Assembly (NCBI GenBank): GCA_007449985.2
Contig: VIIQ02000764.1
Location: 1 to 64,000 of the forward strand
Reading direction: 5' to 3'
Source: Desmodesmus armatus
Lineage: Eukaryota; Chlorophyta; Chlorophyceae; Sphaeropleales; Scenedesmaceae
Length of the DNA: 64,000 nucleotides
The notes beneath the pieces were generated by a model that saw nothing but the letters and a program-made list of their open reading frames with translations, was not told where the DNA came from and did not search any database. The translations under genes were made by a program, and so were the position numbers. Shown piece by piece: positions 537 through 63,557 of this stretch (its first letter is position 1; every line of letters starts with the position of its first letter).

Positions 537-880
537 CTAGAAGCGGGTCATGACAGCACACTGCATGGAAGGGAACAGCTCCATGTCAAGGATATCTGCC
601 CCCCACATACAAACCCCTTCCGCCCTTTTTCCCCTGGTGCCCTCACTAGAGGCGGGTCATGACGGCACAATGCATGGATGAGAACAGCTCCTCGTTGGAC
701 AAGGCCCCCCCCCCTCGACAGAAGCGGGTCATGATGACACGCTGCATGGAAGGGAACAGCTCCTCACCAAGAACGGACCCCCCCCCCCCAAAACACACAC
801 ACACCCTCCCCGCCTTCGTGCCCTCACCAGAAGCGTGTCATGACAGCACAGTGCATGGAAGGGAACAGCCCCACATCAAG
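537..880 (-). repeat. Four diverged copies of the 3' end of the 1026-1121 exon
   Basis: Copies lie at about 828-880, 720-768, 647-694 and 537-590. Each keeps the residues around LFPSMHCAVMTRF, and most keep a GTGAGG donor directly after. Substitutions differ between copies (for example AV to RV, F to L), so they are not exact assembly echoes. Poly-C or poly-G runs separate them. Confidence 0.75.
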
Positions 881-1025
881 GACCCCCCCTCCCGCGTGGC
901 ACGCGTGCCCTCCCTCCCCCCCCCCCCCCCCCCCCCACCCCACCCCCACCCCACCCTCCCGCCACCCCCGCCTGCTGCCCTCCCATCGCCCCCCCCCCCC
1001 TTCTCCCCCTCCATCCTGCCCTTAC

Positions 1026-3562: not shown

Positions 3563-6500
3563 ATGCAGCAGACAATTAAGGCGCCCAGCGCCTTCTCTGG
3601 CGTGAAGGTGCAGGCCAAGGTACTTTCAAACTGCTGTATTACGTCATGATCAAACAGACGCACGTGTGAGCAGCAGAGTCAGCACAGGAGGATACTCGTG
3701 TCACCAGCAGCAGCTTGCAACACCCTGCAGATGTGGATTCATCCATGCTCTCAGCATTGGATCCGTAACCCCTGCAACGCATCTCGACATGCAGTATCTT
3801 TCCAGTCTATTCCCAGCAGCAGCTGCCGTGTCCTGCACCTGCCTTCCTGCGTTCCTGCTGCGCAGGGTGTGCGCCATGCCAGCACAAACAGGGCAGTGCG
3901 TGTGTCAGTCAGCTGCTCAGTGGAGCCCAAGAAGATCCTGATGATGGGTGAGTAATGTTTTTATGCCCTTCTGGCTTGAGCGTAGGGGGAGGGAGGGGCA
4001 GAGGGGGGGGAGGTGATTTGGATGCTGGGTGAGAGGCGTGCAGGGCACGTGGAGGTGAGATTATGAGAAGCCCCTGAGGTAGGGGGGGGGGGTCTCATCC
4101 TGAGGAACATGGTAGCAGGGCAACAGAGGGGATTCAGGGCAGTACGACCGTGCCCAATCGACAGCACCCTCAGACGCTGTAGCTTGTGATGCTGTTGGTG
4201 CACTGCAGGTGCACTGGTTTCTGCTGCTCAGTGAAGGCCGTATAATTACTTAATCCTACTTACTTGATCTCATTAATCAATATTTGATTTACCAATGATT
4301 TACCAGTCTTTGCCAGTCTGCTGTTGGTGAGTGACATGAACATGCCCTACTGCCTTACGCATAATCATGATGGCACATGGAAGGGGGGGGGGGGGGTGAT
4401 CCTCTTGATAGGGGAGCCCGGGGGGGGGGGGGTGTAGGAGGGCAGTGGCACGGGGGGGGGGGGTACACAAGGTGGGGGCCCTTAGATTGACGCACCCCAC
4501 CTTGTAGGGGGCAATGGCACAGGGAGGGGGGGGGGGTAGGTGGGCAGTGGCACGGGGGTGGGGTGGGGGGGGGGGGGTGTAGGGGCAGTGGCACAGGGGA
4601 GGGCACACAAGACTGCCCCGCCAGCCTCAACGCCAGTCACCTTTCATCAGAATCATGCGGTTTGCAGTCAACCCTCCCGTGTGGGGGGGGGGGGGGGAAG
4701 GGTGTAGGGGGGCAGTGGCACAGGGGAGGGCACACAAGATTGCCCCGCCAGCCTCGACGCCAGTCACCTTTCATCAGGATTACTCGTTTGAAGTCACACC
4801 GGGAAATCCTCATGAATGGTGACTGGCGTTGAGGCTGGCAGGTCAGTCTTGTGTGCCCTGTGTGTAAGACACTCAGCTTGATGACAGCCGATACAGTCAT
4901 CATGACACTCAGAACTACTCTCGTAAGGGTGCGTCCAGTCACGCACCGGCAAAAAACGGTGTTGGTTGGATAGTCAAAATGGCAAGCGTGTGTGTCGACA
5001 CAGGGAGTACTTGGATACATGCAAGCTCACTAAGGCTGTCCTACTAGATAGGCAAGCAACAGTGACAGTGACGTAATCCCTCAGCACCGAGCAGTGTGTG
5101 CATGTGTGTGTGGAGGGGGGGGGGGGGGGGTGGCGGGGGGGGGGGGGGGGGGTAATGGTCATACTGAATGGGCAGCATGGGGAACCCTTGAAGAGTGAGG
5201 AGAGGTGGGCACACACAGGCACACAAGCCCCCAGTTGCAGCAGCAGCAGCAGCAAAGGACACAGTACCACAGCTGCCAGCCCAATCACTGCTGGAGCATG
5301 CTTGGACTAAAGAGGGTTGTGAGGGGAATGAGGGGCATGGAAGGCACGGTTGAAAAAGTTGCTCATAGTAGTTTGGCAAAAACAATACCCGCATTCCTGC
5401 CGCATTCTGAACATTGAAAATGGAAAATGGTCTGAATACGTTGACGATGGTATCACGTATCACCACAGCAGCGACTGGTGCAGTGGACACACAGAACTTC
5501 TGTGCGACCTCCTGTGAGCCCCCTGATGTCACTCTTGACGTAGTCAAGGCAGTGCCTCAATGACGAATGATGACTCATCCTGCGCCATGCTGTGCTGTGC
5601 CGTGCTGTGGTGTGCTGTGCTGTGTGCTGCAGGTGGCACCCGTTTCATTGGTGTGTACCTGGCCCGTCAGCTGGTGGCAGCTGGACACGAGGTGAGGTGG
5701 GGGGGGGGGGGCAGTGTGGCGGCAGTGGGGGCCCCGGGGGAGGGGGGTCTCAGGATTTTTTTTGGGGGGGGGGGGGGTACCGGTCAGTGTGATGTCGTGG
5801 CAGGCAGGGGCGTGCGGAGTGGGGGACAGGGAAGGGGGGGGGTGTCGGAGGTAATGTTGCGGCAGTGTGTGTGTGTGGGGGGGGGGGGGCTCATGACGAG
5901 GGGGACGCCAATGACGGGACACCAATGTGGGAGCTAGATGATGGGGGGTACCTTGGACTCCAAGCGAAGGGAGGGGGGGGGTCCAGTGAGTTTGCGCGGG
6001 CCCCTTGGGGGGGGGGGGGCGTTGTAGGGACAGCATGTTTCTGCCTGCCGACAAGCATCGTTGCTTGTGCTGGTTTCAGGGAGGCAGCATGACTGTGTCT
6101 TGCCTGTGTGCGTCCTCATGCCTTGATCTCATGCGTGGTGTCCTGCCGACACTGCTCCTACTGCTGCTTCTGCTGCTGCTGCTGTCAATCCTCAGGTTAC
6201 GCTGTACACTCGTGGCAAGAAGGCCATCACTGAGCAGATTGCTGACGACACCGACCGCAGCTACCAGCAGTTTGCACGCAGCGTCAAGCACATCCAGGGA
6301 GACCGCAAGGTGGGGGCGTGTGCATATTGGTGGTGGTTTGGGGGGGGGGGGAGGGGGTGGAGGGGGGGATGGCAGCTACCAGCAGTTTGCACGCAGCGTC
6401 AAGCACATCCAGGGAGGTCCATCGCAAGGTGTGTGGGGGGGGGGGGGGGGAGAAGGGGGAGCGTGGGCAGGCGGGGAGGGGGAATGCTGCCAGCGTCAAG

Positions 6501-8215
6501 CACATCCAAGGAGACCGCAAGGTGGGGGCGTCCATTCTAGGTTGCGCCTTTCTCAGGCTGAGCCCATTCTTGAACCCTGATGGTGCCAACATCAACACTG
6601 CCACACACCCATGTGTGTATGCATGACCCCCTCCACAATCACCCGTCCCCACACCTCACAGGACTTTGACGATGTTCGCCGCAAGCTGAGTGGCAGTGGC
6701 TTCCAGGTTGTGTTTGACATCAATGGACGTGAGGCAGTAGAGGCAGAACCCATCCTGGATGGCCTGGTATCCTCACCACACCAACATCCCCTCTGCCCCC
6801 CCCCCTGCACTCTGCGCAACACAGAGGACCCTCTAACACAACCCCCCTCCTGCCCCCCCCCCCCGGCCACAGGACTTTGACGATGTGCGCCGCAAGCTGA
6901 GTGGCAGTGGTTTCCAGGTTGTGTTTGACATCAATGGACGTGAGGCAGTAGAGGCAGAACCCATCCTGGATGGCCTGGCTGGCCGTGGTGGCAGTCTTGA
7001 GCAGTACATCTATTGCAGCAGTGCGGGTGTGTACCTCAAGAGCGACATGATGCCACACAGGGAGGAGGACGCAGTAGACCCCAAGAGCAGGCACAAGGTG
7101 GGCTTTTGTTTTGTTTTGTGTGCGTGTGTGGGGTGTGTGTGTGTGGGGGGGGGGATGGTGCGGAGGGGCAACAGAGGGGGAACACCTCAGAGGAGGATGC
7201 AGTAGACCCCAAGAGCAGGCACAAGGTGGGAGTGGGTTGCTATGACCTAGTGCTGACTCCCGTCACCTCATTCCCACATGCGGGAGGAGGGGGGTGAGGG
7301 GGAGGGGGACAGCGCACTAGCCACAGGAGGCTGGATGTTGGTCCCACAAAGGCATCAGGAAACCATTCTCAACATTTGGGAAGAGGCGAGGGGAATTAAG
7401 TAGTGGGGACAGGGGGGGGGGGCTTTCCAGAGGAGGCTGAAGGTTGTCTCACTTGGTGCGATTGATTGCTCTTGACACTGAGGAGCTGCTGCGTCGCTCT
7501 GGTGTGAACTGCACCTCAATCCGCCTCGCAAGGAGGGGCGTACATTGACTCCCCCCCCCCTCCAGGGCAACACTCAAGTGTCAGATCAAGTCATAAGGAC
7601 ATTATGACCTAGATGTCCCTAGGAGTGTAGCACAATGCAGCTGCACACTCAACACAACTGCTGACATGTCCCCCCCCCCCTGTACCCCCCCCCCCTCTGC
7701 TTTCCCCGTCCAACCAACCACAGGGCAAGCTTGACACTGAGGAGTTGCTGCGTCGCTCTGGTGTGAACTTCACCTCGATCCGCCCCGTGTACATCTACGG
7801 GCCCCTCAACTACAACCCCGTTGAGGAGTACTTCTTCCACAGGATCAAGGCGGGACGCCCTATCGTGGTGCCAGGCAGCGGCATGCAGGTGCGTTGAGCA
7901 CATGAAAAAATGTGTGTTTGGCGGGTTTGGGGGAGGGGGGGGAGGGGGGGGGTGTCAGTGGTGCCCCAGTGAAGGGGCGGGCACACAACTGGGTGGCACA
8001 TCATGGTGGAAGGCACCGGCATGACAGTTAAAAAGGGGGGGGGGGGAGGGAGGGAGGGAGGGAGGGAGGACTACTTCCACAGAATCAAGGCAGGACGCCC
8101 TATTGTGGTGCCAGGCAGCGGCATGCAGGTGCGTGTTGGTTGGGGAGGGGGGCTGCCAGGCACACATGGGGGGGGGGGGTGTGAGGGGGCGCGTGTCAAG
8201 GGTGAAGGGTGTGTG

Positions 8216-8287
<72 letters not shown>

Positions 8288-10094
8288 TGTAGGGAGTGCG
8301 TGCGTGTAGGGAGTGCGTGCGTGCGTGCGTGTAGGGAGTGCGTGCGTGCGTGCGTGTAGGGAGTGCGTGCGTGCGTGCGTGTAGGGAGTGCGTGCGTGCG
8401 TGCGTGTAGGGATGTGTGTGTGCGTGTAGGGAGTGTGTGTGTGCGTGTAGGGAGTGTGTGGAGTGGGGAGTGTGTGGAGTGGAGTGTGTGTGGAGTGTGT
8501 GTGGAGTGTGTGTGGAGTGTGTGGAGTGTGTGTAGTGTGTGGAGTGTGTGTAGGGGGGGGGCACATGAGTGGGTGGCCCGTCATGGTGGAAGGCGTGACG
8601 GAAAGGAAGTAGGGAGGGGTAGAGGGGAGGGGTACTTCCACAGGATTGAGGCGGGGCGCCCTATCGTGGTGCCAGGCAGCGGCATGCAGGTGCGTTCAAC
8701 ACATGAACACATGTGTGTTTGGGGGTTTTGGGGGGGGGGGGGGGGGCAAGTGATGCCCCAATGAGGGAGGGCCAGAAGTGGGTGGCCTTTGTGGGGAAGG
8801 CACTGTTGTGACAGTCGGCGAAAGGGAGGCAAAGGGAGTGAGGATGGGTGAGAGGGAGGAGTAGTTCTTCCACAGGATTAAGGCTGGGCGTCCTATTGTG
8901 GTGCCAGGCAGCGGCATGCAGGTGTGTGAATTTCACAGTGACCGGTGTCCTTGTGCAGCCGGCCAATGAAGGCCCCTGATGTCCATTGCTTGTGTGATAC
9001 ATAGGGTAGTCAGCACTGATGTTGCTGGGGGAAAAGGGGGGGGGGTGCAAATGGGGATGCCATTTGAGAAGTTGCATCCAAGCACTCAGAAGAAGGCCGC
9101 CCGCTGACATGTGCTGACTGACGGTTAGGGGGGTGCATCAAAAGCAAGAACATGTTCCAGCCTCCAAGAAGTAATCCTGTCTGTGTTGTCCCTGTGCATG
9201 TGCTGTTGTGTGCCCCAGGTGACTCAGCTTGGTCATGTGAAGGACCTTGCTGACGCCTTCCAGGCCTGCATTGGGAACCCCAACGCAGAGAGGCAGGTGG
9301 GTACAGTGGCTCCTTTTCCCACAGTACATCTTCTTCCCTTCTTTTTGGGACAGTTCTTGTGCCATTGCGAGCGTGAGGCACACTCATTCTTTTTTTGGGG
9401 GTGGGTATAAGGGGGGGGGCGGACCCCCACCGGCTGGCCACACACACAACAGCCGAGGCTGCCGGGAGCCCAAGGTCCCGGCAGGCCTCACACCGATGAG
9501 AGCCGCCGAACACCCTTTCTCACACTCCTTTATCGCAGTCATTCCTGAATTTGCTGGTTGAACCGAGTCTACCAGCCAGAAACGGCCCAGTCGCAGCGTG
9601 ACTGGTGCACAGACAACAGATTTGAACACAACATTTCATGCCTAACGGCAGCTGGCGCCGATCGCATATGTTGTGCGTCGACACGTCGTCATCATTGTCA
9701 CTGCGCACCATTGCTGGGTGCAGTCAAAGCTGTTGTTCTTGTCCCTGTGGCTGTCGCAACATCCAAAGGGACAACAACAACAACAACAACTCAGACTGCA
9801 ACCAGCAATAGTATGCAGTGACTTTGATGATGGTGTCCATCAAAGGGGGTGACTCAATTGTGTGAGGCCCCATTTGAATGCTTGGCAACATATCTGAATA
9901 CACACAGCAGTAATTCACACTACAAACAGAACCTGTTTGGCATTGCTTTACTTGGGAGACCTACTCCCCAGACCGTGCATGTAGGCGATGTGTGCTCCCA
10001 CTCTTGGAAGGCAAGGAGCCGCCTCAATTTGTGTGTGATGTGCTGGCGACGGCATCGCCCGCCCTTTAGGCTGACGTGTTGTCGCATCATGTGT

Positions 10095-10175
<81 letters not shown>

Positions 10176-10909
10176 CACCAGGTGTTCAACATCGCTGGTG
10201 AGCGCTACGTGACCTTTGACGGCATTGCGCGTGCCTGTGCCAAGGCCATGGGGGCACCCGAGCCTGAGTTGGTGCACTTCAACGCCAAGGACTTCGACTT
10301 TGGCAAGAAGAAGGTATGCATGTTTCTCAGACACAGGCTGCAAGGAAGGAGGGGGTGCTGTTTGTGCCCCCGGGGGGGGGGGGGGGGTTGAGTAGGGGTG
10401 AGGGTTTGTGTGCGCGTGTGTGTACTTAGCGTGATGACAACAACCTGTGGGTATGTGGGGGGGGTCGGGGGGCGTGAACAGGCGCCTGTGTCAAGGCCAT
10501 GGGTGCCCTAAGCCTGAGCTGGTGCACTTCAACGCCAAAGACTTCAACTTTGGCATGAAGAAGGTGAGACCCAGGGGGCCGGGGGCTTGAGTAAAAGGGG
10601 GCCGCTGTGGGGTGGGGCCATCACACCTAGACGACCACCACCACACCCATGAACATGCACCACCCCCTTCCACCCCCCCCCCCCCCCGCCCTTCTACAGG
10701 CCTTCCCCATGCGTGACCAGCACTTCTATGCGTCTGTTGACAAGGCCCAGGCGCTGCTGGGCTGGAGCCCCAAGTATGGCCTGGTTGAGGGGCTCAAGGA
10801 CAGCTACGACAAGGACTTTGGACGCGGCATGTTCCGCAAGGCCGCAGACTTTGAGTGCGACGACATGATCCTCAGCAAGCTGGGCAAGAAGAGCTACAGC
10901 TACGCATAA
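3563..10909 (+). CDS. CSP41b: Chloroplast stem-loop RNA-binding protein CSP41b (RAP38 type), 9 exons, 373 aa
   Basis: CSP41b is a plastid atypical short-chain dehydrogenase/epimerase-fold protein that binds and stabilises chloroplast transcripts and rRNA in high-mass complexes with CSP41a. Exons: 3563-3619, 3866-3947, 5633-5691, 6196-6309, 6873-7097, 7724-7888, 9219-9296, 10182-10313, 10700-10909. All phases close, giving 1,122 nt. Residues 1 to about 40 form a transit peptide starting MQQTIKAPSAF. Next come KKILMMGGTRFIGVYLAR (Rossmann glycine motif), YIYCSSAGVYLKSD, SIRPVYIYGPLNYNPVEE, VTQLGHVKDLADAF and the typical C-terminal DFGRGMFRKAADFECDDMIL. Length matches plant CSP41b (about 378 aa). 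The introns carry many diverged copies of exon ends; exon 5 has an upstream in-frame duplicate. Identity is based on remembered family sequence, and the match is extensive. Confidence 0.95.
5579..5632 (+). repeat. (TGTGC)n-like tract before the 3' splice site of CSP41b exon 3
   Basis: Degenerate CTGTG/TGTGC units run directly into the acceptor TGCTGCAG|GTGGC at 5633. The same pentanucleotide precedes other acceptors in this window. Confidence 0.8.
6369..6522 (+). repeat. Two copies of the 3' end of CSP41b exon 4 in intron 4
   Basis: Positions 6369-6428 and 6483-6522 repeat the coding segment for SYQQFARSVKHIQG and SVKHIQGDRK from exon 4 (6196-6309). The second ends in the same CGCAAG|GTGGGG donor; the first has an inserted TCCAT. 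G-rich homopolymer tracts flank them. Confidence 0.85.
6662..6766 (+). repeat. In-frame duplicate of the first 105 nt of CSP41b exon 5 (possible cassette exon)
   Basis: This segment repeats exon 5 from DFDDVRRKLSG to EPILDGL. It is exactly 105 nt, begins after CTCACAG (a good acceptor) and is followed by GTATCC (possible donor). I see only two differences from exon 5, both synonymous (GTT/GTG and GGC/GGT). Because 105 is divisible by 3 and both junctions are phase 0, splicing it in would add 35 residues without a frameshift. Confidence 0.85.
7182..7230 (+). repeat. Copy of the 3' end of CSP41b exon 5
   Basis: The sequence repeats the codons for EEDAVDPKSRHK and the following GTGGG donor of exon 5 (ending 7097), about 130 bp downstream, after a G-rich tract. 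Confidence 0.85.
7467..7530 (+). repeat. Copy of the 5' part of CSP41b exon 6 in intron 5
   Basis: The segment repeats LDTEELLRRSGVN and following codons of exon 6 (7724-7888) with a few substitutions (TGC for TTC after GTGAAC). The acceptor of the real exon is not preserved here. Confidence 0.8.
8069..8922 (+). repeat. Three further copies of the 3' end of CSP41b exon 6 in intron 6
   Basis: Copies at about 8069-8128, 8630-8690 and 8864-8921 code for the FHRIKAGRPIVVPGSGMQ segment and each ends in ATGCAG|GTG, a donor. They differ from exon 6 and from each other mainly at synonymous sites (GGACGC, GGGCGC, GGGCGT); one copy has E for K. The coding sequence CTTCCACAG just upstream resembles an acceptor, so a 46-nt exon could be recognised in each. 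GGGA, TGCG and TG simple repeats fill the gaps. Confidence 0.85.
8219..8550 (+). repeat. TG/TGCG/GGAGTGTG microsatellite block in CSP41b intron 6
   Basis: A (TG)n tract grades into (GTGC)n up to about 8290, then into longer units containing GTAGGGAGTGCG, then TGGAGTG units to about 8550. It produces long spurious reading frames on both strands. Confidence 0.9.
9420..9511 (+). mobile_element. SINE-like dispersed element, copy 1 (truncated)
   Basis: Contains the shared core CCACCGGCTGGCCACACACA and the downstream CCTCACACCGATGAGA block seen in three other places. It sits in CSP41b intron 7, just after a poly-G run. Confidence 0.6.
10100..10174 (+). repeat. (CTG)n tract before the 3' splice site of CSP41b exon 8
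   Basis: An uninterrupted CTG/GCT triplet run of about 75 bp ends at the acceptor GTCACCAG|GTG (exon start 10182). It occupies the place of the polypyrimidine tract. Confidence 0.9.
10483..10563 (+). repeat. Copy of the 3' end of CSP41b exon 8
   Basis: The segment repeats codons for GCCTGTG..AAGGCCATGGG and LVHFNAKDF.FG.KK of exon 8, with two replacements (DFD to DFN, GKK to GMK) and a one-base loss near 10508, and ends in AAGAAG|GTGAGA, a donor. Confidence 0.8.
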
Positions 10910-11483: not shown

Positions 11484-14500
<3,017 letters not shown>

Positions 14501-14513
14501 CTTTTGGCCCACA

Positions 14514-15532: not shown

Positions 15533-15546
15533 GGGTGTGGGCCGGG

Positions 15547-15645
15547 CTTGTGTGCTTTGTAGTAAGATCGCAGAGGCTGAAGCTGCCGTGTCTGTCAACA
15601 AAAAGAAGTAGTTAGTGATGCATATGCATGTGCAGCTGAAGCTAG
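15547..15645 (+). repeat. Dispersed repeat, copy 1 (second copy at 52628-52722)
   Basis: About 95 bp containing GATCGCAGAGGCTG and TTAGTGATGCATATGCATG are shared with 52628-52722 at high identity. One frame reads KIAEAEAAVSVNKKK then stop; the second copy stops earlier. It may be a mobile-element fragment. Confidence 0.75.
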
Positions 15646-17083: not shown

Positions 17084-18729
17084 TCACTTCCTGGAACGGC
17101 GGGTGCCCCTTGCTGCTGCTGCTGCTGGCTCCTCAGCCTCTGCAGCTGCTGCTGCCCCCTTCCTGCCCTTCTTCGGTGCAGCAGCAGCAGCAGCAGCACC
17201 TGAGCCCTCCTCACTCTCAACAGCGCCCTTCTTCCCCTTCTTCTTCTTGGGAGCTGCTGCAGCTGTGGCAGCGGCAGCACCTTCCTCATCACTCTCAGCA
17301 GCAGCAGCAGCAGCAGCAGCAGTGGGGGCGGCGGCCGCCTTCCTTCCCCTCTTGGGTGCCGCAGCAGCAGCACTGCTGTCACCCTCCCCTGTACCCGCTG
17401 CTGCAGCCGTTGTCGATGCTGAGCGCCCCTTGCGCCCACCAGACACAGGGCGCTCCTCAGCAGCAGCAGCAGCAGCAGCACCCTTGCGAGCACGCTTCAC
17501 AGCTGGGGCCTCGGCTGGCTCCTGTGGATCCTCTTCTTCTTCCACTGCAGCAGCAGCAGCAGCAGCAGCTGCTGCTCCTCTGCGGCGACTGGCAGACGAG
17601 CCTTTTTTGCTTTCTGCAGCAGCAGATACTGTGCCGCTGCCTACCCCCTCTCCCGCATCTTCTGTTGCTGCTGGAGCAGCAGCAGCTGACCTGCCCCTCT
17701 TGCCTGCTGCGCCCTTTTTGGCAGCAGGAGCCTCTTCTGCTGCAGGGACAGCAGCAGCAGCAGCAGCAGCAGCAGCGGCGGCAGCCTTGCCGCGCCCCTT
17801 GCGAGCTTTGGCAGGTGCCTCCTCATGTTCTGCCGCTGCTGCTGGCTCCTCCTGCTTCTGAACACCATCAGCAGCAGCTGCCTTGCCCTTGCCACGGCCC
17901 TTTCGTGCAGGTGGTACCTCTGCTGGTGCTGCCTCCTGTTCCTCTACCTCCTCAGCAGCAGCAGCAGCAGCAGTACCGCCAGCCTTGCGGCCCCTGCTGG
18001 CTTTGCCACGGGGAGCAGGGGCTGCCTCAGTTGCTGCATCTGCTGCTGTGGCAGCGTGGGAACTGTCGCCAGCCTCAGCCTCAGCAGCAGCAGCAGCAGT
18101 AGTCTTTTTGGCCTTCTTGCTCTTTGGTGCTGGCGCTGCTGGCTCTGCCTCCTCAGGACCGGCTGCTGCCTCAGCAGCAGCAGCAGCAGCAGCAGTGGTT
18201 TTCTTAGCCCTCTTGCTCTTGGGTGCTGGCACCTCTGGCTCTGCCTCATGCTGTGTCTCCTCAGGGCCTGCAGCGGCTGCTTCGTCAGCAGCAGCAGCAG
18301 CAGTGTCTGCTGCTGCACCACGCTTGCGGGAGCCTCTGCTAGCTGGTGCAGCGGCAGCGGAGGCAGGCTCTACCTCTGCCTCAGCAGCAGCAGCAGGGGG
18401 TGCTGTGCCCTTCTTACCAGCAGCTGCCTTGCGGCCTCCCTTCTTGGTGGCTGCTGCTGCACTGGGCTGCTCCTCGTCAGCAGCAGCAGCCGCATCAGCG
18501 TCCGCCGTCTCCTGCTGCTGCACCCCCTCCCCAGCGTCCCAACCCTCACCCTCAGCAGCAGCAGCAGCAGCAGCAGCGGGTGCCTTGCCCTTCTTGCTGG
18601 CGGCTGCCTTGCGGCCACCCTTCTTTGCCCCTGCTGCTGCTGCACTGGGCTGCTCCTCGTCAGCAGCCGCATCAGCGTCCGCCGTCTCCTGCTGCTGCAC
18701 TGCCTCCCCAGCGTCCTCACCCTCACCCT

Positions 18730-18764
<35 letters not shown>

Positions 18765-20634
18765 GGTGCCTTGCCCTTCTTGCTGGCGGCTGCCTTGCGG
18801 CCTCCCTTCTTGGTGGCTGCTGCTGCTGCCTTAGGCTGCTCTGCAGTGTCCTCCTCCCCCTCAGCAGCAGCGGCGTCTGCTGCCTCTTGCTGCTGCTCCT
18901 CAGCAGCAGCAGCAGCAGCAGCAGCCTTGGCACCTGCCTTGCGGCCCTTTCGGGCTGCTGTTCCTGCCTCAGCATCAGCAGCAGCAGCCTCCTCAGTTCC
19001 TGCGGCCGCCACCACTGCAGCAGCAGCAGCAGCAGGCTTCTTGCCCTTTGCTGCCTTCCTGCCCTTGGCTGCAGGCTCAGCAGCCTCTGCTGCCGCACTA
19101 CCCCCTGCATCTCCTGTGCCGGCTGCACCTGCGTCCTCAGTTGCCGCTGCTGCAGCCTCTGTCGCGGCTGCGTCCCCTGTCTCTGGTGCGGCAGCGTCAC
19201 CAGTGGCTGCTGCTGTTGCAGGCTGTGCTGACTTACCCTTCTTACGACCCTTCTTAGCAGGCTCAGCAGCAGCAGCAGCAGCTGCTGCTGCTTCTGGCTC
19301 CTCATACTGCTGCTGCTGCTGCGCGTCATCCTCAACCTGCTCAGTGGCTGCTGCTGCTGCTGCTGCTGCCTTGCCGTGTGCAGCAGCCTTAGTGGCCTTC
19401 TTCCTGCTGCCGCTGCTGCTCTTGCTGCTGCCGGCAGCAGCAGCAGCAGCAGTAGCAGCAGCCTCGTCAGCAGCCACAGGAGCGCAACCCTCACCCTCCT
19501 CACCACCCTCCTCACCAGCAGCAGCAGCGTCTGCTGCATCGTCTGCTGCCCCCTTCTTCCTGCCGCGCTTGCGTGAGGGGAACTCCAACGCCAGCAGCTC
19601 CTTTTCCTTGTACTCCTGGTAGCTGTTCAGCTCCCCACCCACGTCATCCGCAAACTGCACGTGGCCACGCTTGCGCGCAGCAGCAGCGGCAGCAGCAGCA
19701 GACGTGACTGCTCCTGCCCCTGCTGATGCCGACCCTGTCCCACCCTCACCCTCGCCCTCAGCAGCAGCAGCAGCAGCTGCTGATCCTGCCTCATCCTTAC
19801 CCACAGGATCCTCCCCACCCACTGCCTCCAATGCTGGCTCATCCCCTGCATCACCAGCTGCTGCTGCTGCTGCTGGGTCAGCAGCATCAGCATCAGCCTT
19901 GCCCTTCCTGCCACTGCGGCCAGAGGCAGGGCGGCTGCCGCCATGCTTTGCCTTGGGACCCTTGCCGGCTGGCTCACTCTCAGCACCTGCACCTGCTGCT
20001 GCAGCACCTTCTGCAGCGTCCTCCCCTGCTGCCTCTTCAGCGCCATCAGCAGCAGCAACAGCAGCATCTGCTGCAGCAGGCTTGCTGGCCTTCTTGCCCT
20101 TTGCTGCCTTGCCCTTTGCTGCCTTGCCCTTGCGGCCTGCAGGTGCCGCTGTGGCTGCGGCAGCCTCCTCGTGCTCCTCCTGCTGCCCCTCCTCATGGCA
20201 AGCCCCCTGCCCCTCTGCTGCTGCTGCTGCTGCTTCCTCTTCTGCAGCAATTGGAGCCGCCTCTGCAGCAGCAGCAGCAACAGCAGCTGCCTCAGCATCA
20301 ACAGCTGGAGCAGCAGCAGCTGCAGGAGCATCATCCTCGACATCCTCTGCTGCTGCTGCTGTTGGTGCTTTGCTGGGCTTCTTGCCCTTGGCTGCCTTCT
20401 GTTTCCTTCCCTTGGCAGCTGGGGCTGCAGCTGCCTCTGCCTCTGTCTCCTCGTCTGCTGCTGCTGCTGCTGCTGTTGCTGCTGGTACCGGCTCGACACC
20501 CACTCCTGCAGCAGCATGCAGCACAGCCCCTTCCTCCTCCCCCTTCTCCACCTGTGGCTGCCGCTGTGTTTCTGTTTCTGTGTCTGCGCCCTCGGCAGCA
20601 GCAGATACAGGCTCTACCGCTGCAGCTGCCTCCT

Positions 20635-20671
<37 letters not shown>

Positions 20672-21465
20672 TGCTGCTGCAGGTGGTGGTGTTGCCAGCA
20701 GCACGTTCACAGACACCAGCTGGCCTGCAGGTCCCGCTGTCCCCTGGGTCCCCTCACTTGCTGCACTCAGCTGCACCTTGACAGCCTTCCTGCTGCTCCT
20801 GCAGGCAGTCTCCCTGCCACCTGGCAGTGCTGCTGCTGCGGCAGCCGGGGTGGCTGCTTTGCCCGCAGCAGAAGCATCATCTGCTGCTGGTGCTGCTGCA
20901 GCAGAGGGGCTGGCAGCAGCAACATTCTCTGCATCAGCAGCGGCTGCATCACAGGCGCCCTCTGCTGCTGGCGCTGGCATGCGCTCCGGCTCTTCAACCC
21001 CAGCCTCTGGCTCTGCAACCTCAGTCTCTGCAGCTGCAGCTGCGGGGGCGTCATCTGCAGCTGTAGTCGCCTCCTCTGCAGCTGCTGGCGTCCCCTGTGC
21101 TGTGAGCTCTGTCGTCGTCTCTGCTGCAGGCGCTGCAGCAGCAGGAGCCTCCTCCTCTTCGACTGCTGCTGCTGCAGGAGTAGTGCCGGCGTCAACAGCC
21201 TCAGCCTCAGCCTCAGCAGCAGCAGCAGCAGCAGCAGCTGCCTTTGCAGCGCTAGGCTGTGGCGTGCAGCTCTTCCTAGGTGTGCGCCTGGGCGCCGGTG
21301 AAGCGCTCCTGCAAGCAGCAGCAGCTGCTGCCTGGGCCTCTGGCTCTGCAGCAGCAGCAGCAGCAGCAGCTGGTGCTGCAAGGGGTGTGGTGCCCTTCTG
21401 GGGTGTGGTGCGCCTGGGGGTGGTACCACTGCGCATGGGGCTCTGCAGGGCTGCAGCTGGAGCTT

Positions 21466-21496
<31 letters not shown>

Positions 21497-23458: not shown

Positions 23459-23509
<51 letters not shown>

Positions 23510-41304: not shown

Positions 41305-41770
41305 CTGCTCATCCTGCACTGCTCGGCCAGGGCCTGGCAGATGAAGTCCCGCAGCGGCGTCAGCACATCCAGCACATCCTTGAAAGTGGGCTGGTCCTCG
41401 GGCCGATGGCTCATGCAGGCCTGGCCCAACTCGACCAGCGCCTCAGCCCACTCCCAACTGCTGTAGCTCACTGCCAACTGCTATCAGCCCACCCCTCACT
41501 GCTCAGTCAGGGCCTGCCTTGCAGAAACACCCCTGAAATGAACTCCCCCTGACACAGCGTGCTGCCGTGGGTGCACAGTCTCCACGTTGTCCACCCCTCA
41601 CTGCTCGGCCAGGGCCTGGCAAATGAAGACCCGCAGGGGTGTCAGCACATCCAGCACATCCTTGAAAGTGGGCCGGTCTTCGGGCCTGTGGCTCATGCAG
41701 GCCTGACCCAACTCCACTAAGGGCTCAGGGGCGTCTGGCGGGAACTGCCGCACACACCCCTCAGGAGCCC
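41305..41770 (-). repeat. Two downstream copies of the kinase last exon
   Basis: About 41601-41770 and 41305-41460 repeat the segment ELGQACMSHRPED.PTFKDVL to FICQALAEQ of the kinase C terminus. The first copy is open, is preceded by GCGGCAG (possible acceptor) and ends in its own TGA; the second loses the stop and reads on. Several replacements relative to the real exon (Y to H, R to K). Confidence 0.88.
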
Positions 41771-41829
41771 GAACTTTCACAAGCCCCCCGGCTGCTCGCT
41801 GCTGCAGCCCACAGCTCACCCCTTACTGC

Positions 41830-42450
41830 TCACTGCTCTGCCAAAGCCTGGCAGATGAAGTCCCGCAGGGGTGTCAGCACATCCAACACGTCCCTGAAAG
41901 TGGGCCGGTCCTCGGGCCGGTAGCTCATGCAGGCCTGGCCCAACTCCACCAGGGGCTCAGGAGCGTCAGGCGGGAACTGCAGGCTCTGCCGCTTGACACA
42001 CACGGCGTGCACAACCCCGTGGTGGCTTAGGCCAGCCCAAGCCCTGCATAGCACAGCAAAGCACAGCATGGCACAGCGTGAGGCAAGAACATGTGCAGAC
42101 GTCCGCAGCTTGGTGGGCAACGGTCCCCAATACCGCATGTGACTCAAGCCCTGCTCCCACGACCCACCTCTGCCAATCTGTGCATGCGGCCCTGGCACAC
42201 ACAGGAAAATGCACACAGAACTTGCGTAATTTGTGTGCTGCCCTGGCACACACAGGAAAAGGCACACAGACCTTGCGACCAAAAAAGGGCTCACGGCGTG
42301 CAGCTACGCAGCCGTCTTGCTCAACAACTGTGCACGCACCTGCTGCTCGCCAGCATCTGCCACAGCAGCACCCCAAAGGAGTAGACGTCCACAGCCTTGC
42401 TGGTCACGCCATGCTCAAGGGTCTCGGGGCCCATGTGTGTGATGGTGCCT

Positions 42451-43525: not shown

Positions 43526-46500
43526 TCTGGAAGTGAACCTTATTGTGCACAACTACAGCAGCAGCCGCAAGGCGCCAAATCATAGTTCCCATATAACAGC
43601 AGCCAGGGCTGTAGCAGCCACAGCAAGAAGAGCATATGCTGACCGCACAGTCATAGGTGTATACAGCAGGATGGTGGTCGCGGAAACAAAGCAGGTCGCC
43701 TGCAGGTCCAACAGCAAGCAACATCCACCTTTCAGCAGCAACACATGGACACTGCTCGACCCCAAACCCCAACACATGCAGATGCAGCATGCGTTGATGC
43801 TGTCCTTCCCAAGGTCTGGCCGTGGTGAAGGTGTACAGGACAGGAAGGTGTCAGAAGAAGCAAAAAAAAAAGTCCGCTGCAGAACTAACAGCAAGCGCAA
43901 TCCACAGCACGCAGCAACACTGCAAAGCTCCTGGACCCCCCCCCCTCCCCAGCTTATAGTGTCCTTCGTAGTCTGTGCGCACTCACTCGAGCACCAGCCA
44001 CGTCTCCACTGTCAGCAACAACAGATAGCAACAGGGAGAACACAGCAGACAGCCGCATGACCAACAGAACGCAGATTCCTTGAGCAGCAATATGTACTTA
44101 CTCAAGCACCAGCCACGTCTCCGCTGTCAGCAGGCTGCTGGCGATACTGTCCTCGCTCACTACCTCCATCGACGGCAGCTGCTGCGACACACTCGCCATG
44201 TCAACCGACGCAGTACGAGTGCTCAGGCTACCGCCGCCGCCATGCACACCGCTTCTCTGCTGCTGCTGTTGCTGGTCGAGCTGTGGGGCCTGGTCTGCGT
44301 CGGCACCGGCTGCGATCGCTGCCTTGTTCTGTGGAATGCTTGGCTTATCAGAGCCGAGGGTTTCGCCCCACAGACGCTTTCCCACAGACAGCTTGCTCTG
44401 CGGGTGTGCACGAGGTAACAAGGACGACGAGCAAGACAGGAAGGTCAGAACTACATCGCAGCAGGCCGCTGTTCACCCCAGCGACGATGGGGCTTGCATG
44501 AAACAGCACAAGCTTCGATAGGGCCGTCTGCAACGACCTTGTCAGACCACACTGGCCACAGCCACCACCTGAAGCCTGCTGCACAATGTCACCAGAAACC
44601 AAGGGTAACAATGCACACCAAGGCATAGCGGTGCTGCACTGCATGCCTACACTCTTCCAATTCATAAGATAGTAAGATAGTTGGACGGCATGAAAAGAGC
44701 CACCCAACCTTCTACCAGACCGTTGCGCATCCAACAAAGGACGACTGACCTTGCCGGTGACCACTGCCCATGCCAGGGTGGAGATGATGTTGGGGTGTCT
44801 GCAGACAGGCATACAACAGCGGCTGGTTCTGTGAGCCACAGGGATGGGACGCAGGAGAGGCATCAAGGACACAGCCTGCGCTATGTGCCGCACACACTGC
44901 ACAGGCATTGTGCATGTTGCTAGCCATTTGAATCGTCTAGTCACAACGATAGCGGCAGCACATCAACACAATTCACATGCTGCCTGGAAGCACGTTTGTG
45001 AGATCAACATGTCAGCAAGCTGTGCATGTTGCCGCCCCGCCGCCCCCCCCCCCCCTCACCTGAACTTCTCCCCAAGCAGAGCTTCCAAACACAACCCTGT
45101 CACAGTCTCCCGCCGAATCACTGAGTCACTCTCCAGCACCTTCACAGCAACCTACGATACAGCACAGCGCAGCACAGCACGACACATCACATCAGTACAC
45201 AGCAAACATAAGAGTGACATGTTGGGCAGCAGTCACTGCAACATGCCATCAACAAGGGCGTGTGACAGCAAGGTCACAGACCTGGCGGGTTGTGGGTGCT
45301 GCCAGCGCCCGACCGAGCATGCTGCGTGCAGGAATCCGCGCAAACCAAGACACCCTGGCGTGCAAAAATCTCACGGGCGTGGTTGCTGCCAGCGCCCGAC
45401 CATGCATGCTGTGTGTAGGAAGTCCGCGCAAGCCAAGACACCCTGGCGTGCAAAATCTTACGAGCGTCGCCTCCCCTACCCTCTGCTCTCTTGCTCCCCA
45501 TCCCCAAGGCAGCCCCAAACCACCCGCAAAGATCACTTACTATTGAGCCATAATAGTCCCCTGTGTACACGCGGCCATACGAGCCAGACGCAATCAGCCC
45601 TCCCATGCGCAGCCCCTCAATCTTGCTGCACACTGCACGAGCAGCAGCTGCCCCTGTGCCACTCGTGATGCTCGTGATGCAGCTCCCAACCAGACTGGCT
45701 GCCGCGATACTGCCGCTGTCCACATTACTGCTGCTGCTGTTTGTCACGACGTTGGTGTTGCAGCCGCTGGTGTCGCTGTTCAAGCGACTGAGAGGCACCA
45801 GGTTACTGTCATCGTAGACACAGCGAGCAGCGCCCTCCTGAACCTGCCCAGCGCTCGGCAACGACAGGGAGATGCGGCCGCTGCTGGCCGTGCTGGCAGC
45901 GCTCTTGCTGCTGCTGTTGCGGCGGCCGGAGCCGACGGAGAAAGTGCCACAACTGGACGCCTGGTGCAGTCGGACACGTCAGCAGTAGCAGCAACACGCA
46001 GATACAGGGAATGATATGGAGAATTGACACACAACCTTTACAGATGAACATCCCACAATACATCAAGAACAACGCAATGACTGAAGCACGTGGCATGCCT
46101 TTCTTTGTTTAATGCACAGGGTGGCACCCACAGGGCAGGCCAAGTATGGGACACCGCTGATACCGGAGCCTGCTGTTGCAGTGTACAAAGTGACCGCAAC
46201 CGTGACAGCGCCGACAACAATGGCAGCAACAGCCCAGCCCTACCTGCGGCAAGTGCTTACGCCCGATTTCGTATACAAGAAATGATGTCCTCTACATGTA
46301 AGAAATGATGAGGATTCTACATAAAAACAAACTAAAAAAAGGGCGCACCTGTGTTCCTGGTAGCTTCACGTGCAGCCGCTCCCCAGGCGCCTCCAACAGC
46401 ACTGTCACAAAGTACAGGGTCTGCCAGGGGGGGCAGGCTGTGTTGGGGGCCGCGCCGTCTGCTGCGCCGGACTGCAGGGCCGCTGCTGCTGTCGCGACAG

Positions 46501-49500
46501 ACCCCGACTGGGGGACCCATGTGGGCACACAGATGCTGACAGCCCCGTCCAGATCACTCAAGCCAGCAGACCTGAGAGTGGGGAAGGGCAGCGAAAGCGT
46601 CAGGCAAAGGAAGGCAGGCGCAGTTGCATGAATAATGGAGCAAGATGGAGCGAACACAGCGACGCCCAGGTAGACACACAAATGCTGACAGCCCCGTCCA
46701 AATCGCTCAGACCAGCAGACCTAAAGGTGGGGAAGGGCAGCGAAAGGCGCAGATGTTTGAAGGCAGGCAGGCGCAGGATGGTTTGCAACGACAGCAAACA
46801 CTGCGGGAAGTATGTCCACACACAGACCTTGAGAGAGTGCTCAAGCTCATTCAGCAATCAACCAGCAAGTCTGAAGCACAACCGCAGACGTGCAACAGCA
46901 AACACATCTGCACTGTGGTCCGCAAACGGCACAAATGCAGCCCACAGATCCTCAGCAAGGCTCCTCACCTGAACACCAGTGTGACAGCAGCACCCCCAAA
47001 ATCCTCCACCTCCACCCCATGCAACTAAGAACAAACCAAACACCAGAAAAACCGCACGCAAACACTTTGACCCGCACGCAGCGCAACACATGCAGCTCAC
47101 CCCCCCCCCCCAGGGGCTGAGTCAGCCAGGCTCCTCCCTGGCCTGGCCCTGACGCAGCCTCCTGGTGAGAAAAGTATAGCAACTGTAAGAGTATAAGTGT
47201 AACAAAGGTAAAATGCTCACCTGAACACCAGTGTGACTGCAGCACCCCCAAAGTCCTCCACCTCCACCCCATGCAGCGAAAATGGCTGCTGCGTCGGCAG
47301 CAGCCGCTGCAGCTGCTGCACAATGCTGACCCCGCCGTCGAGCTCCTTCGCTAGCTGCTTCTCAATCAGCGGGAACAGCAGGCGCCCGGTGATGTTACAG
47401 ACATTCTCCACGCTGCTACTGCCATGCAGCGCACCAGACTGCTGTGGCAGGAAGCTGCTGTTGCTGCTGCCACTCACGCCACCACCAACCCCGCCAGCTG
47501 CGGCTGCAGCAGCGGCATCTGTTGACAGGACAGCGTTGGAGGCTGCACTGGCAGCAGCAGAGGAAGGCTGGCCGGGTGGGGCGTCTGCTGCATCAGCGTT
47601 GACCCAGTCCTTGGTGGCCTGTGTCTGCATCATCTGCTCAACCATCCGCTGCCAACCGCTGTTGGCGTAGCGAACAACCCAGCCTGTGGTGGCGGTGTCG
47701 ATGAGGAGCACGGGACTGCAAGAGGGGGCAGGGGTACACGCACAGAACAGCACAGACGTGGACATGAGACAGCAGGTGACGGGCCAAGCGGTCACTTGTA
47801 TGTGTGTGGTGGCAGTGTTGATGAGGGACGGGCCAACTGGTCACTTGTATGTGCGTGGTGGCAGTGTTGATAAAGAGCACGGGATCAAGCTGGTGCGCCC
47901 TACCCCTCACCTGTTGATGCTCCTCAACGCCATATGATCCCGATGCTTCTCCTGCAGCTGCCTCAGCGCCTTCCTCAGCGCCTCCCACAGCGCCTGACTA
48001 GGCTTCCCACCATCCCACCCATCTCTACAATGTTACTTTCCCTGCCTACCTGGCCACACCTACCCCACCACCCTCGCCCCTCACCAACAAAGAAACCACA
48101 CTTACATAAGTGCACGAATCAACCTGCAGTCTCCCCATTCATCAAGGTCATGCACCCCCACCCCTCACATGTTGATGCTGTCGATGCTCCTCGACGCCAT
48201 ATGATACCAATGCTTCTCCTGCAGCTGCCTCAGCGCCTCCCACAGCGCCTCACTAGGATCCACCATCCCACCCATCACTAAAGTGTATACTTCCCTGCCG
48301 ACCTGGCCGCATCTCCCCCACCACCCTTGCCCCTCACCAACAAGGAAAACCGCGCTTATCCCCTATCCTGCAGCATCCCCATCCTCGAGCTGGTGCACCC
48401 CACCCCCACCTGTTGATGCTGTCGATGCTCCTCAAAGCCATGTTATATCGGTGCTTCTCCTGCAGCTCCCGCAGCGCCTCGCCAGGCTTCAGCATCTGCT
48501 GGTGGTGCGCCACCACCAAGTCCCGTTCCAACGCCCGTGTGACGAGCTCGCTGAAATTGCACAGCAGCTTGAGCGATGCGTCATCAAACACGCGCGGCTC
48601 GCTGTCAGCAAAGCACAGCGTGCCTAACCGGTGGCCGCTGCTGGACACGAGGGGTGCACCCACGTAGAAGCGAACACCGTACTGCTTGGCGACTGGGCTG
48701 TTGCAGAAGCGCGCGTCCTGCGATGCATCAGGGACAGTGCGTGCGGTGCTTCAGGGACAGTGCATGTGATGGGAACCCCCAGGGTGAATCCGCGGTAGGC
48801 TTTCAGCTTCCACACAAGCATCTCCAGCCGACCTGATATATGTCCACTCGAGTTAACCCCCAGCTTTTACAGGAAGCCCCTGACGTCACCCCGCGTGGAG
48901 GCTTCCAGCCCCGCCGTGAGCATCTCCGGCCTACCTGGTGCACGTCGTTCACGATCATGACGCAGTGCCGCTCAGAGGTCATGGTCCACCCGCACATGCT
49001 GTAGCGCCAGGGGAAGTCGCCCTCCTGACAGCACAAACAGCAGCAGCAGCACAAGCACACGGTGTTGGTTGGACTCATAGAACTGCTTGCATGAGACTGA
49101 TATGTTGCTTTCACGCTAGCTACACATGTATTCTCCGTGCCTAACACACGCAGCACAGCATCATCAGCAAGAGACCAGCATGCAGGATTGATGACCCCTG
49201 TCATAACACCGGGCAAGCCACGTGCTGCGGTGCCAAACATGGCTGTTGCAAGTGCACCAGGCGCGAGCATGCGAGGTTTTTTTACTGCCAGCTTACAGCC
49301 GGCCTCTCAAGTGCCTGTCGTCAGCATCCCAAATCGCCCTTCCACCTCAATCATGTAAGCTACTTCTTCACCCTTCCACCCCGCATACGGCATCCCAACC
49401 CACTCATGTCCACTCCTTCAGCCTTTCACCCCCGCGCGCACAGCATCCCACAATTACACTAGTCATGTCCACGGCTTCTTCGCCCTTCCACCCCCCGCAC

Positions 49501-51474: not shown

Positions 51475-51640
51475 ACACATACACCTCCACACTGTGCCAG
51501 GAGTTGCTCCCTGCACCCCTGATGTTCCAGATTGTCACACAGATGCTGCCCTCCTCCCTCGGCTGGGGGTTGTAGTGTGCATCCACTGCCCTCACACTCA
51601 GCCTTACCAGCCGCTGCCCCTGCTGCTCCAAACCGGCCAC
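51475..51640 (-). repeat. Downstream copy of the 51748 exon tail
   Basis: Codes LVRLSVRAVDAHYNPQPREE then GSICVTIWNIRGAGSNSWHS and a TGA stop. Compared with the upstream copy it has a 9-nt insertion (CVT) and silent or conservative changes, so both copies stay open. Confidence 0.8.
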
Positions 51641-52627: not shown

Positions 52628-52722
52628 GGAGGGCTTTGTAGTAGGATCGCAGAGGCTGGAGCTGTCGTGTCTGTCAACTAAAACAAGTGGTTAGTGATGC
52701 ATATGCATGTGCAGCTGAAGCT
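52628..52722 (+). repeat. Dispersed repeat, copy 2 (first copy at 15547-15645)
   Basis: Same orientation as copy 1 and about 37 kb away. Differences are scattered substitutions (AAG/AGG, GAA/GGA, GCC/GTC), so it is an older duplication rather than an assembly echo. Confidence 0.75.
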
Positions 52723-54128: not shown

Positions 54129-54163
54129 GGAAAGTGTGAGGCTCTTCAGATATCACACTTTCC
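54129..54163. repeat. Perfect 11-bp inverted repeat
   Basis: GGAAAGTGTGA (54129-54139) pairs with TCACACTTTCC (54153-54163) across a 13-nt loop. Confidence 0.7.
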
Positions 54164-54328
54164 ACATCACAACTCCACATCACAACACAACTCGTCACAG
54201 GTCTTGGGGAGATATTACCTCAACTTCCGAAAGCGATGCTGAGCGCTGCTGGAGGGTTGCACGGCTGATGCTGGGCTTGAACTGGTATGGGGGGAGGGGG
54301 GTTTGACCCCGTAGGGAGCCAAGGAGGC

Positions 54329-61700: not shown

Positions 61701-63557
61701 TATGTACCGTACCATTACAGAGTGCACCACAATGATGCAACAGCAACACACTTACGTGTGGTCGTGATACCAAGAAGTTGATGGCCTCTGTGTGTTAGGG
61801 TAGATGTAGTCTGCTGTGCCTGCCTCGTAGACCTGGCCTCCTGTGGCCTTCTTGTACTGCTGCTCAAACAGCCTATACCAGGTGCCCTCCTGTTGACACA
61901 GCAGTCAGAAACAACCAGACATATTGACGACATAGAATGGAACTTGCGCGTTGCCAACCGTTCAGGGATATCAACTCAAAAGAACACTGTGGCAGCAACT
62001 GCAAGCAAAATCAGTCAGGCACCTATGCACCTAGGACAATCCACCGACACGGGCCGCCCAGTTGAGCTAAGTGCGGGGCTTTCATTACAGGGTTCATCAA
62101 CTGAGCCTAGTCAGTACACCAGCCCCCAACACAGATGATGGGCTTACCCTTGACGTGGTATCGGGGATGTTGGCGTTAGGCAGGTACCAGGCCTCTGTGT
62201 AGCCATCAGAGTAGTCGCCCACATCCTCCATGCCGTGCTGCAAGCAACAAGGGTGCATGAGGGTGTGGGGTTGGGAAATCAGAAGTATACAGGGAACAAG
62301 CATACCCTCAACAGGCACGGACATCCTCCAGACCGTCCTGCAGGCATTGGCATTTTCAACCACAGTACACAAACAGCCAGGACATACAATATGCCTAGTG
62401 ACCAGTGCAGGCTGTTCCAAGGTGGGGCAGTGTTTCCTGTAACAGCTAGACGTGCTACCACAGCTGCTGATGCTGCGTTCAGTCTGCGTTGGCATCAATA
62501 GTGTTGCACGTGGGGCAGCGAGGCTCCAGGAAACCAGAAGGACACCATTAGCATGTTCTCGTAAGGGATTGAAGCTTGCTGTGCTGATGGCCAGCACAAC
62601 GTCACACAGGTGTCTAGCACTGCGCTGCGGAACCGTCAACTTACCACATGAGTGACAATGGGGACAGGACCAGTGTAGTTAGTGAGTATGCCACTGGCAG
62701 CTGAGGCCCTACAACACGCGAAAATGTGCAGTGGCAGGTAGTAAGTTGTACAGCCCTTGAGTAGCTGGCTTATGCCGCGGCCATGCATGATCAAACATCT
62801 CACAATGCCATTGCTTGAAGCACAGTGCAATAGCACATGCAAAGCTGTGGTGGACGAAAAGAAACTGTGAATTGTTACTTTTGATGCATGGAATGAACGC
62901 TCCCTGCAGCATGATTGCCCATAGGTAACAGTGCGGCGGCAGCCATCCCACACTTGGCAACTTACTCAGCACAAGCAGTGTTGGGACAACCAGTAGCTGG
63001 GCAGTCCATGCAGGGGCTGTCGTCAATCCTGCTGCCACCGATTCCCTGCAGGAAGGACGGCATCAAAAGAACTTCCATCAGGGTGCATGACAGCTATGCC
63101 ACAGTTGTCAGGGTGTTTGGGGTCAGGGCAGCAGAACATGTGTGGGTCGATCCTGACATCACACAGAACAACCTGTCATGCGATACATGCAGTCACTGAT
63201 TGCCCTGCACGCATGCTGCCTGGGGTTCCATTGACAGATTGCTGGCTGCACGTGAACATATCAAAGCTGGGTGCTCATGGTGGCAATGAAAAACAGACAC
63301 ACTTGTGCTGACCAAAACTTGTCCAGAACTCAACAGACAAAGTGTTTCCTGCCATTGCGGGCCTACTGGGCAGCAGTTGCTGCATAATCAAGGGCTTCAA
63401 GGTTTGGAGTCCACTCCCTCAACCCTCAACCCCCATTGCCTACAACCCATCACCCTACCCTACGTACCTCGGGGTTGGCCCTGATGTTCCAAGCAAGAGC
63501 GGCAGCACAAGACCAGAGCAACAGGCAAGGCAGCACAGCAGTTATTTGAGCAGACAT
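55769..63557 (-). CDS. Secreted multicopper oxidase (CotA/bilirubin-oxidase-like laccase), 17 exons, 625 aa
   Basis: Multicopper oxidases oxidise phenols, bilirubin-type substrates or metal ions and reduce O2 to water. Exons: 63468-63557, 62966-63045, 62645-62708, 62148-62237, 61756-61889, 61243-61271, 60820-61013, 60028-60156, 59567-59643, 58895-59003, 58480-58543, 58002-58099, 57520-57691, 57253-57420, 56928-56962, 56410-56642, 55769-55880. Phases close exactly (1,878 nt). A signal peptide (MSAQITAVLPCLLLWSCAAA) predicts secretion. Copper motifs: HVHG (split between exons 3 and 4), WYHDHT, HPIHLH, and WHCHLVEHEDNEMM (split between exons 16 and 17), with Cys ligand and a Met at the axial position. 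LPLVIQDRVFDSNGQLWYP and AERLDIIIDMS are typical of CotA-like enzymes. A Cys-rich insert (CMDCPATGCPNTAC) follows the signal. The physiological substrate cannot be told from sequence. Confidence 0.95.
56003..56189 (-). repeat. Two copies of the oxidase last-exon start (copper-ligand segment)
   Basis: About 56150-56189 and 56003-56040 repeat (HLV)EHEDNEM of exon 17 (55769-55880). Both lie in the last intron. The 56150 copy begins CAG|GACAACACG and the 56003 copy CAAAGTCACC, so neither would restore the HCH motif cleanly if spliced. Confidence 0.8.
56836..56902. repeat. AT-rich island
   Basis: About 67 bp of AATTAAAT/AAAATTA-type sequence in an intron of the oxidase gene, in sharp contrast to the GC-rich surroundings. 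Confidence 0.85.
58736..58785 (-). repeat. Decayed copy of the end of oxidase exon 10
   Basis: ATTGGTGCCGGGTTGGCTTCC..CAGAATGCAG|GTGAGT parallels the exon 10 end (GTACTGAGGCTGGCTTCTTCCCCCAATCACAG|GTGGG, 58895) in intron 10. Confidence 0.6.
60331..60420 (-). repeat. Decayed copy resembling the end of oxidase exon 9
   Basis: Codes YNARVFQMGLEF, compared with CNARVLQIGFLR of exon 9 (59567-59643), but lies upstream, in the intron between exons 7 and 8. A second, weaker relative with GCCCAGCGCTGAAT.CACCCTG lies at about 60690-60725. Confidence 0.55.

Follow-up and report, generated by a model that had tools for sequence, protein, structure and literature searches.

Exon-edge copies in the genes of the window

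The window, meaning the whole stretch of 64,000 nucleotides of Desmodesmus armatus DNA that was analysed, is part of a 115.8-Mb, 831-contig assembly and contains no N. It carries, among others, a CSP41b gene (5.6-10.9 kb), a TL17-like pentapeptide gene, a GAF/kinase gene on the minus strand and an oxidase-like gene. Within introns of several of these genes, partial copies are found of the end of the preceding exon (END copies) or of the start of the following exon (START copies), in most cases together with the adjoining splice site (Table 1). CSP41b, whose exons were located by tblastn using an Arabidopsis CSP41b protein, holds nine of them: seven END copies with a donor lie in the following intron and two START copies in the preceding one, one of the latter keeping its acceptor and one being devoid of it. 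A second CSP41b gene copy as their source was rejected, since a DNA search of the assembly gave none among the best candidates listed. The TL17-like gene has one START and one END copy, and copies accompany three further exons of the GAF/kinase gene besides its terminal exon, the end of which, including the stop codon, is present in three tandem copies. The first of these is presumably the one in use; pairwise synonymous to non-synonymous differences among the three amount to 11:3, 10:5 and 11:4. As a similar pattern is thus found 3' of a stop codon, splicing is not required for it, and the copying process is probably not specific to splice sites.

The first-pass annotation of this DNA had attributed such copies to at least six genes and, more weakly, to the oxidase. 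This is confirmed for CSP41b, the TL17-like gene and the GAF/kinase gene; at the four scored exons of the oxidase-like gene, no copy was found. For the leftmost and 'MCFS' genes, where the regions searched yielded no scored exon, as for the giant gene, the analysis shows only local direct repeats.

Table 1 Exons and exon-edge copies in the window (positions in window coordinates)
Feature	Position	Strand	Family or basis
CSP41b exon (VTLYTRGK...GDRK), donor at 6310	6196..6309	+	tblastn with Arabidopsis CSP41b; splice sites read
END copy 1 of exon 6196-6309 with donor; net 4-bp insertion	6372..6424	+	
END copy 2 of exon 6196-6309 with donor	6491..6521	+	
Upstream copy: acceptor and 106 bp from the start of exon 6873-7097, differing at 2 synonymous sites	6662..6767	+	
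CSP41b exon	6873..7097	+	tblastn
END copy of exon 6873-7097 with donor	7190..7225	+	
Upstream START copy of exon 7724-7888, acceptor lost	7471..7528	+	
CSP41b exon	7724..7888	+	tblastn
END copy 1 of exon 7724-7888 with donor	8065..8128	+	
END copy 2 of exon 7724-7888 with donor	8626..8689	+	
END copy 3 of exon 7724-7888 with donor; in-frame TAG	8856..8921	+	
CSP41b exon	10182..10313	+	tblastn
END copy of exon 10182-10313 with donor; 1-bp deletion, 4 non-synonymous changes	10484..10565	+	
Upstream START copy of TL17-like exon 12965-13126, 72% identical	12809..12862	+	Pfam pentapeptide
Downstream END copy of TL17-like exon 13393-13509	13587..13634	+	
END copy 1 of GAF-domain exon 48410-48717, downstream	48170..48238	-	GAF by Pfam
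END copy 2 of exon 48410-48717, downstream	47911..47971	-	
Two short upstream START copies of exon 47221-47715 (47855-47884, 47805-47826)	47805..47884	-	
END copy of exon 47221-47715, downstream	46969..47028	-	
Short END copy of exon 44110-44397, downstream	43995..44017	-	
End of the kinase terminal exon, stop codon included; first copy in a tandem set of three	41829..41960	-	
Second copy of kinase terminal exon end, 3' of first stop codon	41597..41728	-	
Third copy of kinase terminal exon end, stop codon changed	41315..41446	-	

Other repeats were observed in the window as well. A giant low-complexity coding region on the minus strand (17087-27427), with open reading frames 2287 and 1026 codons long, contains many internal repeats; the stretches inspected abound in alanine, glutamine and lysine. 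A 119-bp unit is repeated four times at 97% match outside the scored exons (34633-35107), and a 90-bp pair of 93% identity lies 37 kb apart (15554-15643 and 52633-52722). Moreover, a dispersed element of about 100 bp occurs at 9384-9534, 28801-28897, 33978-34107 and, inverted, 35366-35489, as well as in at least 31 other places with 82-91% identity. Neither Rfam nor tRNA searches gave a match in the window.

Loci and exon sets

Besides the window, 20 kinesin loci, 10 light-harvesting loci (of 20 originally intended), two HSP70 loci and loci from a DNA search were used. The homology-anchored set comprises 123 exons, of which 7 belong to CSP41b, 19 to HSP70, 76 to kinesins and 21 to light-harvesting proteins, these being the ones among 121 kinesin and 49 light-harvesting matches that fall in the loci used. 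An ab initio set of 216 exons was compiled in addition, leaving out L001, L005, L006, L008 and L011 for overlap with other loci and two predicted exons which are themselves copies. Three of the 40 copies found on the expected side (END downstream, START upstream) had no anchored alignment and were excluded, so that 37 copies were analysed, with 6 bp trimmed from the inner end of every copy for codon counts. All p values are rough, since edges within one gene are not independent. Early counts of whole-exon matches were superseded; these had stood at 4/76 for kinesins, one match being 2.3 kb off, and at 8/21 for light-harvesting proteins, four of which reflected internal homology of the protein. 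A shuffled control on kinesins (20/76) was discarded because kinesin exons match their own paralogues, and introns of foreign families were used as control instead.

Side, orientation and frequency

In the anchored set, END copies were found downstream of 13/123 exons and upstream of none, while START copies were found upstream of 14/123 and downstream of one (a weak match, E=6e-4). Copy-bearing edges thus number 27 on the expected side and one on the wrong side, and inverted copies are absent from all four classes of 123 (0/492), as is to be expected for a direct duplication spanning the exon border; after such an event the intact exon ends in the END copy that comes first, or begins with the START copy that comes last, so that the remaining copy falls in the intron by construction, and all that selection has to maintain is use of the outer site. 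Comparing exon edges with introns of other families likewise gave 0/492. Two to four copies are present at 8 of the 27 edges; together with the kinase last exon, nine edges hold three to five versions, the exon included. The ab initio set gave END copies downstream at 20/211 edges and upstream at 3/210, START copies upstream at 17/215 and downstream at 2/216, and inverted copies at 0/852, where the right-side counts include L028 matches (65-69%) which seemingly belong to the same repetitive stretch as the wrong-side ones. The wrong-side matches are low-identity stretches in L028, L030 and L032 (71-79%), a weak match in L023 and a whole-exon copy at window positions 51554-51619. Exon-edge copies in introns are hence a genuine, non-random pattern, and direct duplication across the border, with the outer splice site kept in use, would result in the observed side and orientation.

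Copies occur at 13/39 edges of the window and at 12/40 edges of the two HSP70 loci, a rate inflated for the latter since these loci were picked for visible copies, which does not affect the side rule. At unselected loci, 12/347 edges have copies (kinesin 7/277, light-harvesting 4/59, others 1/11). Profile matches read by eye revealed protein-visible copies in 3/10 HSP70 contigs; among contigs with elongation-factor-type GTPases, reading by eye likewise gave at least 1/18 (C597), and among HSP90 contigs 0/2. Copies are therefore widespread but clustered by gene, common in few genes and rare in most, and the designation as a genome-wide habit in the first-pass annotation was too strong. An effect of expression, judged from light-harvesting versus kinesin edges, did not reach significance (p=0.11). 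Overlapping profile matches alone point to additional probable exon-edge copies in the same assembly, at C55:480361-480920, C566:215116-216523 and C597:48462-48960. Pairwise comparison of 32 loci for allelic contigs gave two pairs above threshold, both paralogue-like.

Two structural classes of copies

The exon part of the copies measures 22-106 bp and covers at most about 61% of the respective exon. GT is present at the aligned edge of 18/20 END copies and within 5 bp of it in the other two, and AG at the edge of 12/17 START copies (both read by eye). None of the 37 copies is a complete in-frame exon with both splice sites, and several are frameshifted; new exons, which had been raised as a possible outcome, are not seen among them. 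A possible exception to the rule of incomplete copies is the terminal exon of the kinase. As a separate observation, the first HSP70 exon of L051 has a probable GC donor (CAG|GCAAGC, positions 237-242).

According to the intron side, two classes can be distinguished. In class 1 (17/37 copies), intron-side homology extends over 12 bp or less while the exon part is 83-98% identical; in class 2 (20/37), it extends beyond 12 bp. Local alignment scored intron homology above 99 of 100 shuffles for 3/17 class-1 and 13/20 class-2 copies. Homology of the whole unit including the intron part is thus not a property of the set as a whole, and as it is lacking in most class-1 copies, the set was not classed as plain tandem duplication. 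Such a duplication in cis predicts homology beyond the splice site, exactly where that of class 1 stops. In 14/17 class-1 copies unrelated sequence follows, which corresponds to the terminal repeat with filler between copies expected of staggered breaks. Class 1 would fit a copied exon edge separated from its exon by DNA that is new or from elsewhere, as from staggered-break repair or a double template switch, while class 2 would fit tandem duplication. An origin from introners or mobile elements was considered and is unsupported: in the one stretch tested (L051:2930-5112), the matches elsewhere, among those listed, are HSP70 exons and short tracts of 26-87 bp, with no intron-sized family.

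Divergence of the copies

Mismatches in the 37 copies are distributed over the codon positions as 24:25:92 and comprise 89 synonymous versus 52 non-synonymous changes, which bears out the earlier remark that substitutions are often synonymous. Since 26/37 copies differ from the exon by at least one non-synonymous change or by a gap, and 11 by neither, the copies look like relics. Polarisation by the HSP70 paralogue, done for 21 HSP70 copies, assigned 19 synonymous and 37 non-synonymous changes to the copies and 32 and 0 to the exons, with 12 ambiguous. Copies hence decay while exons stay constrained.

Differences counted once give 80 synonymous to 50 non-synonymous changes, or 67:36 with 12 bp trimmed, and copy-to-copy differences give 50:28. 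With a constrained exon and a neutral copy, a synonymous share of 0.41-0.50 is expected under several mutation models (p=1e-6 to 0.006). GC-biased mutation as the cause of this excess was rejected, as it lowers the excess but does not abolish it. Owing to the synonymous excess, part of the divergence seems older than the duplication and acquired while still coding, which suggests that a copy was often taken from a diverged haplotype. The stop of homology and the synonymous excess would both be accounted for if the copying had drawn on a diverged haplotype or, alternatively, if the assembly had mixed haplotypes.

G/C runs and intron composition

A G/C run of at least 7 within 300 bp is present at 24/37 copy-bearing edges versus 37/389 copy-free ones (odds ratio 17.6), so that the separation of copies by poly-G/C asserted in the first-pass annotation applies as a tendency. 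At unselected loci, copies occur at 5/19 edges with a G/C run versus 7/328 without (p=2e-4), in support of the suggested systematic process linked to G/C-rich tracts. Introns at copy-bearing edges contain 42% G in their first 100 bp compared to 32% elsewhere, and 43% C in their last 100 bp compared to 29%. The flank preceding END copies is G-enriched relative to the same intron (0.485 vs 0.392, p=0.006, n=20 copies); C enrichment at the START-side junction is not significant on its own (p=0.11). For 22 introns from CSP41b and both HSP70 genes (L051, L052), 21.5 pairs are predicted between the intron ends versus 9.8 after block shuffling, about a twofold difference; for the first 30 kinesin introns of the list, the values are 13.8 and 11.1. 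These predictions are no more than suggestive of a model in which the G-rich start of an intron pairs with its C-rich end, looping out the copies and perhaps bringing the outer splice sites together.

Proposed mechanism and alternative explanations

The reading we somewhat favour over its opposite is that of recurrent, genuine local duplications near G/C runs, which are tolerated through use of the outer splice sites and then decay. The analysis shows that the copies exist, on which side and in which orientation they lie, that they decay and that they are associated with G/C runs, whereas we infer the break or switch step and that the outer sites remain in use. Near a G run on the 5' side of the intron or a C run on its 3' side, a break, a stalled fork or a switch of template would cause roughly 20-110 bp of exon edge with the splice site to be copied again; this stretch would enter the intron as a direct repeat, and at times a whole exon-plus-intron unit would be repeated. 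As long as the outermost donor or acceptor (in the last exon, the first stop codon) is still used, the duplication would be tolerated and the copies would become intron or 3' flank; they would subsequently decay, lengthening the intron, while later rounds add further copies. The underlying activity is probably a repair or copying process linked to G/C tracts and filtered by splicing. More tentatively, and with considerable doubt on our part, intronic G/C tracts might sustain a standing recopying of exon edges, partly from diverged alleles, so that introns would be time-stamped archives whose length is largely set in this way.

Several properties of the copies, namely coding-like differences, homology often ending at the splice site, donors retaining GT and proximity to G/C runs, would equally be expected if fragments of diverged haplotypes or strains had been laid end to end at assembly breaks in G/C runs, the copies then being allelic exon ends. 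Such an artefact is unlikely in our estimation: three to five versions at nine edges are too many for a diploid echo (at L051 edge 5113, two of the copies do not differ in the codons compared), CSP41b and the L051 HSP70 stretch are devoid of a second close copy among the best candidates listed, most copies have a non-synonymous change or gap, and no N interrupts the window. If the duplications are genuine, they might still have arisen in trans, by unequal exchange between homologues in a very polymorphic species. The synonymous excess and the diverged introns would thereby be accounted for, the distances among the kinase copies are near star-like, and the data would be matched by alleles that differed by a synonymous divergence near 0.1 when the copying took place, followed by decay. 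Exchange in trans is nonetheless improbable, given that the required diversity is extreme and that polarised synonymous changes are fewer on the copy lineage than on the exon lineage.

Selection on the copies as functional alternative exon ends or splicing regulators could be read from the retained GT and AG dinucleotides and from the synonymous excess; against this, all 37 copies are incomplete, polarised copy changes are mostly non-synonymous (37/56), and frameshifts and an in-frame stop are present, making such a function very improbable. Hardly credible, finally, is chance similarity or ordinary minisatellite growth touching exons by accident, despite the long tandem arrays in the window: besides the foreign pairs without a single match and the strict side and orientation, of 15 local direct pairs found across 37 loci, 7 reach a scored exon edge versus 2.5 expected, a comparison in which exon parts stay recognisable longer.

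Intron lengthening and the origin of new splice sites are usually studied via single cases. With dozens of exon-edge copies of differing age tied to G/C runs, one could trace directly how decoy splice sites arise and decay, and the copies would also reveal how the splicing machinery selects the outer site among near-identical ones. Should they turn out to be an assembly artefact, gene models from G-rich genomes of algae would have to be viewed with caution.

Relation to known systems

The first-pass annotation knew of no described system of such regularity. This holds only in part: an incomplete literature search gave no description of this exact pattern, but related cases are known, the closest found being that of Daphnia (PMC4202315). 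According to the sections of that article considered, new introns arise there by staggered double-strand-break repair leaving exon-terminal direct repeats of 4-12 bp, and introns gain further repeats, and grow, through secondary breaks within them (PMC4202315). The present copies are likewise direct repeats of the terminal bases of the adjacent exon, which in Daphnia sit at the other end of the intron; in contrast to the 4-12 bp of Daphnia, the exon part is longer here, with up to four copies per edge linked to G/C runs (PMC4202315).

As far as the portion of the potato study drawn upon here describes it, a tandem genomic duplication across the intron-exon structure of an RdRp gene gave a new intron and exon (PMC4974935). 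Both cases share a direct duplication over an exon border carrying splice signals; while the potato gene is a single case with a new exon, many incomplete copies and no new exon are found here (PMC4974935). In the Rogers model, as summarised in the same portion, an intron is gained via duplication of an AGGT-bearing exon segment (PMC4974935). Tandem duplication near AG|GT is common to both, yet the segment in our case spans an existing border and would lengthen an old intron instead of creating one (PMC4974935).

For C. elegans, the part of the source used describes how breaks, among them those at G-quadruplexes, are followed by tandem duplications and by templated patchwork insertions; in helq-1 mutants, tandem duplications ranging from about 100 bp to 10 kb arise spontaneously (PMC8654963). 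Breaks at G-rich motifs and templated repair would be the shared elements, whereas the C. elegans case concerns an animal in a mutant setting and, in that part of the source, is not linked to exon borders (PMC8654963). On this partial comparison, the pattern appears close in kind to the Daphnia type of repair and to boundary-spanning duplication, but larger, recurrent and clustered by gene.
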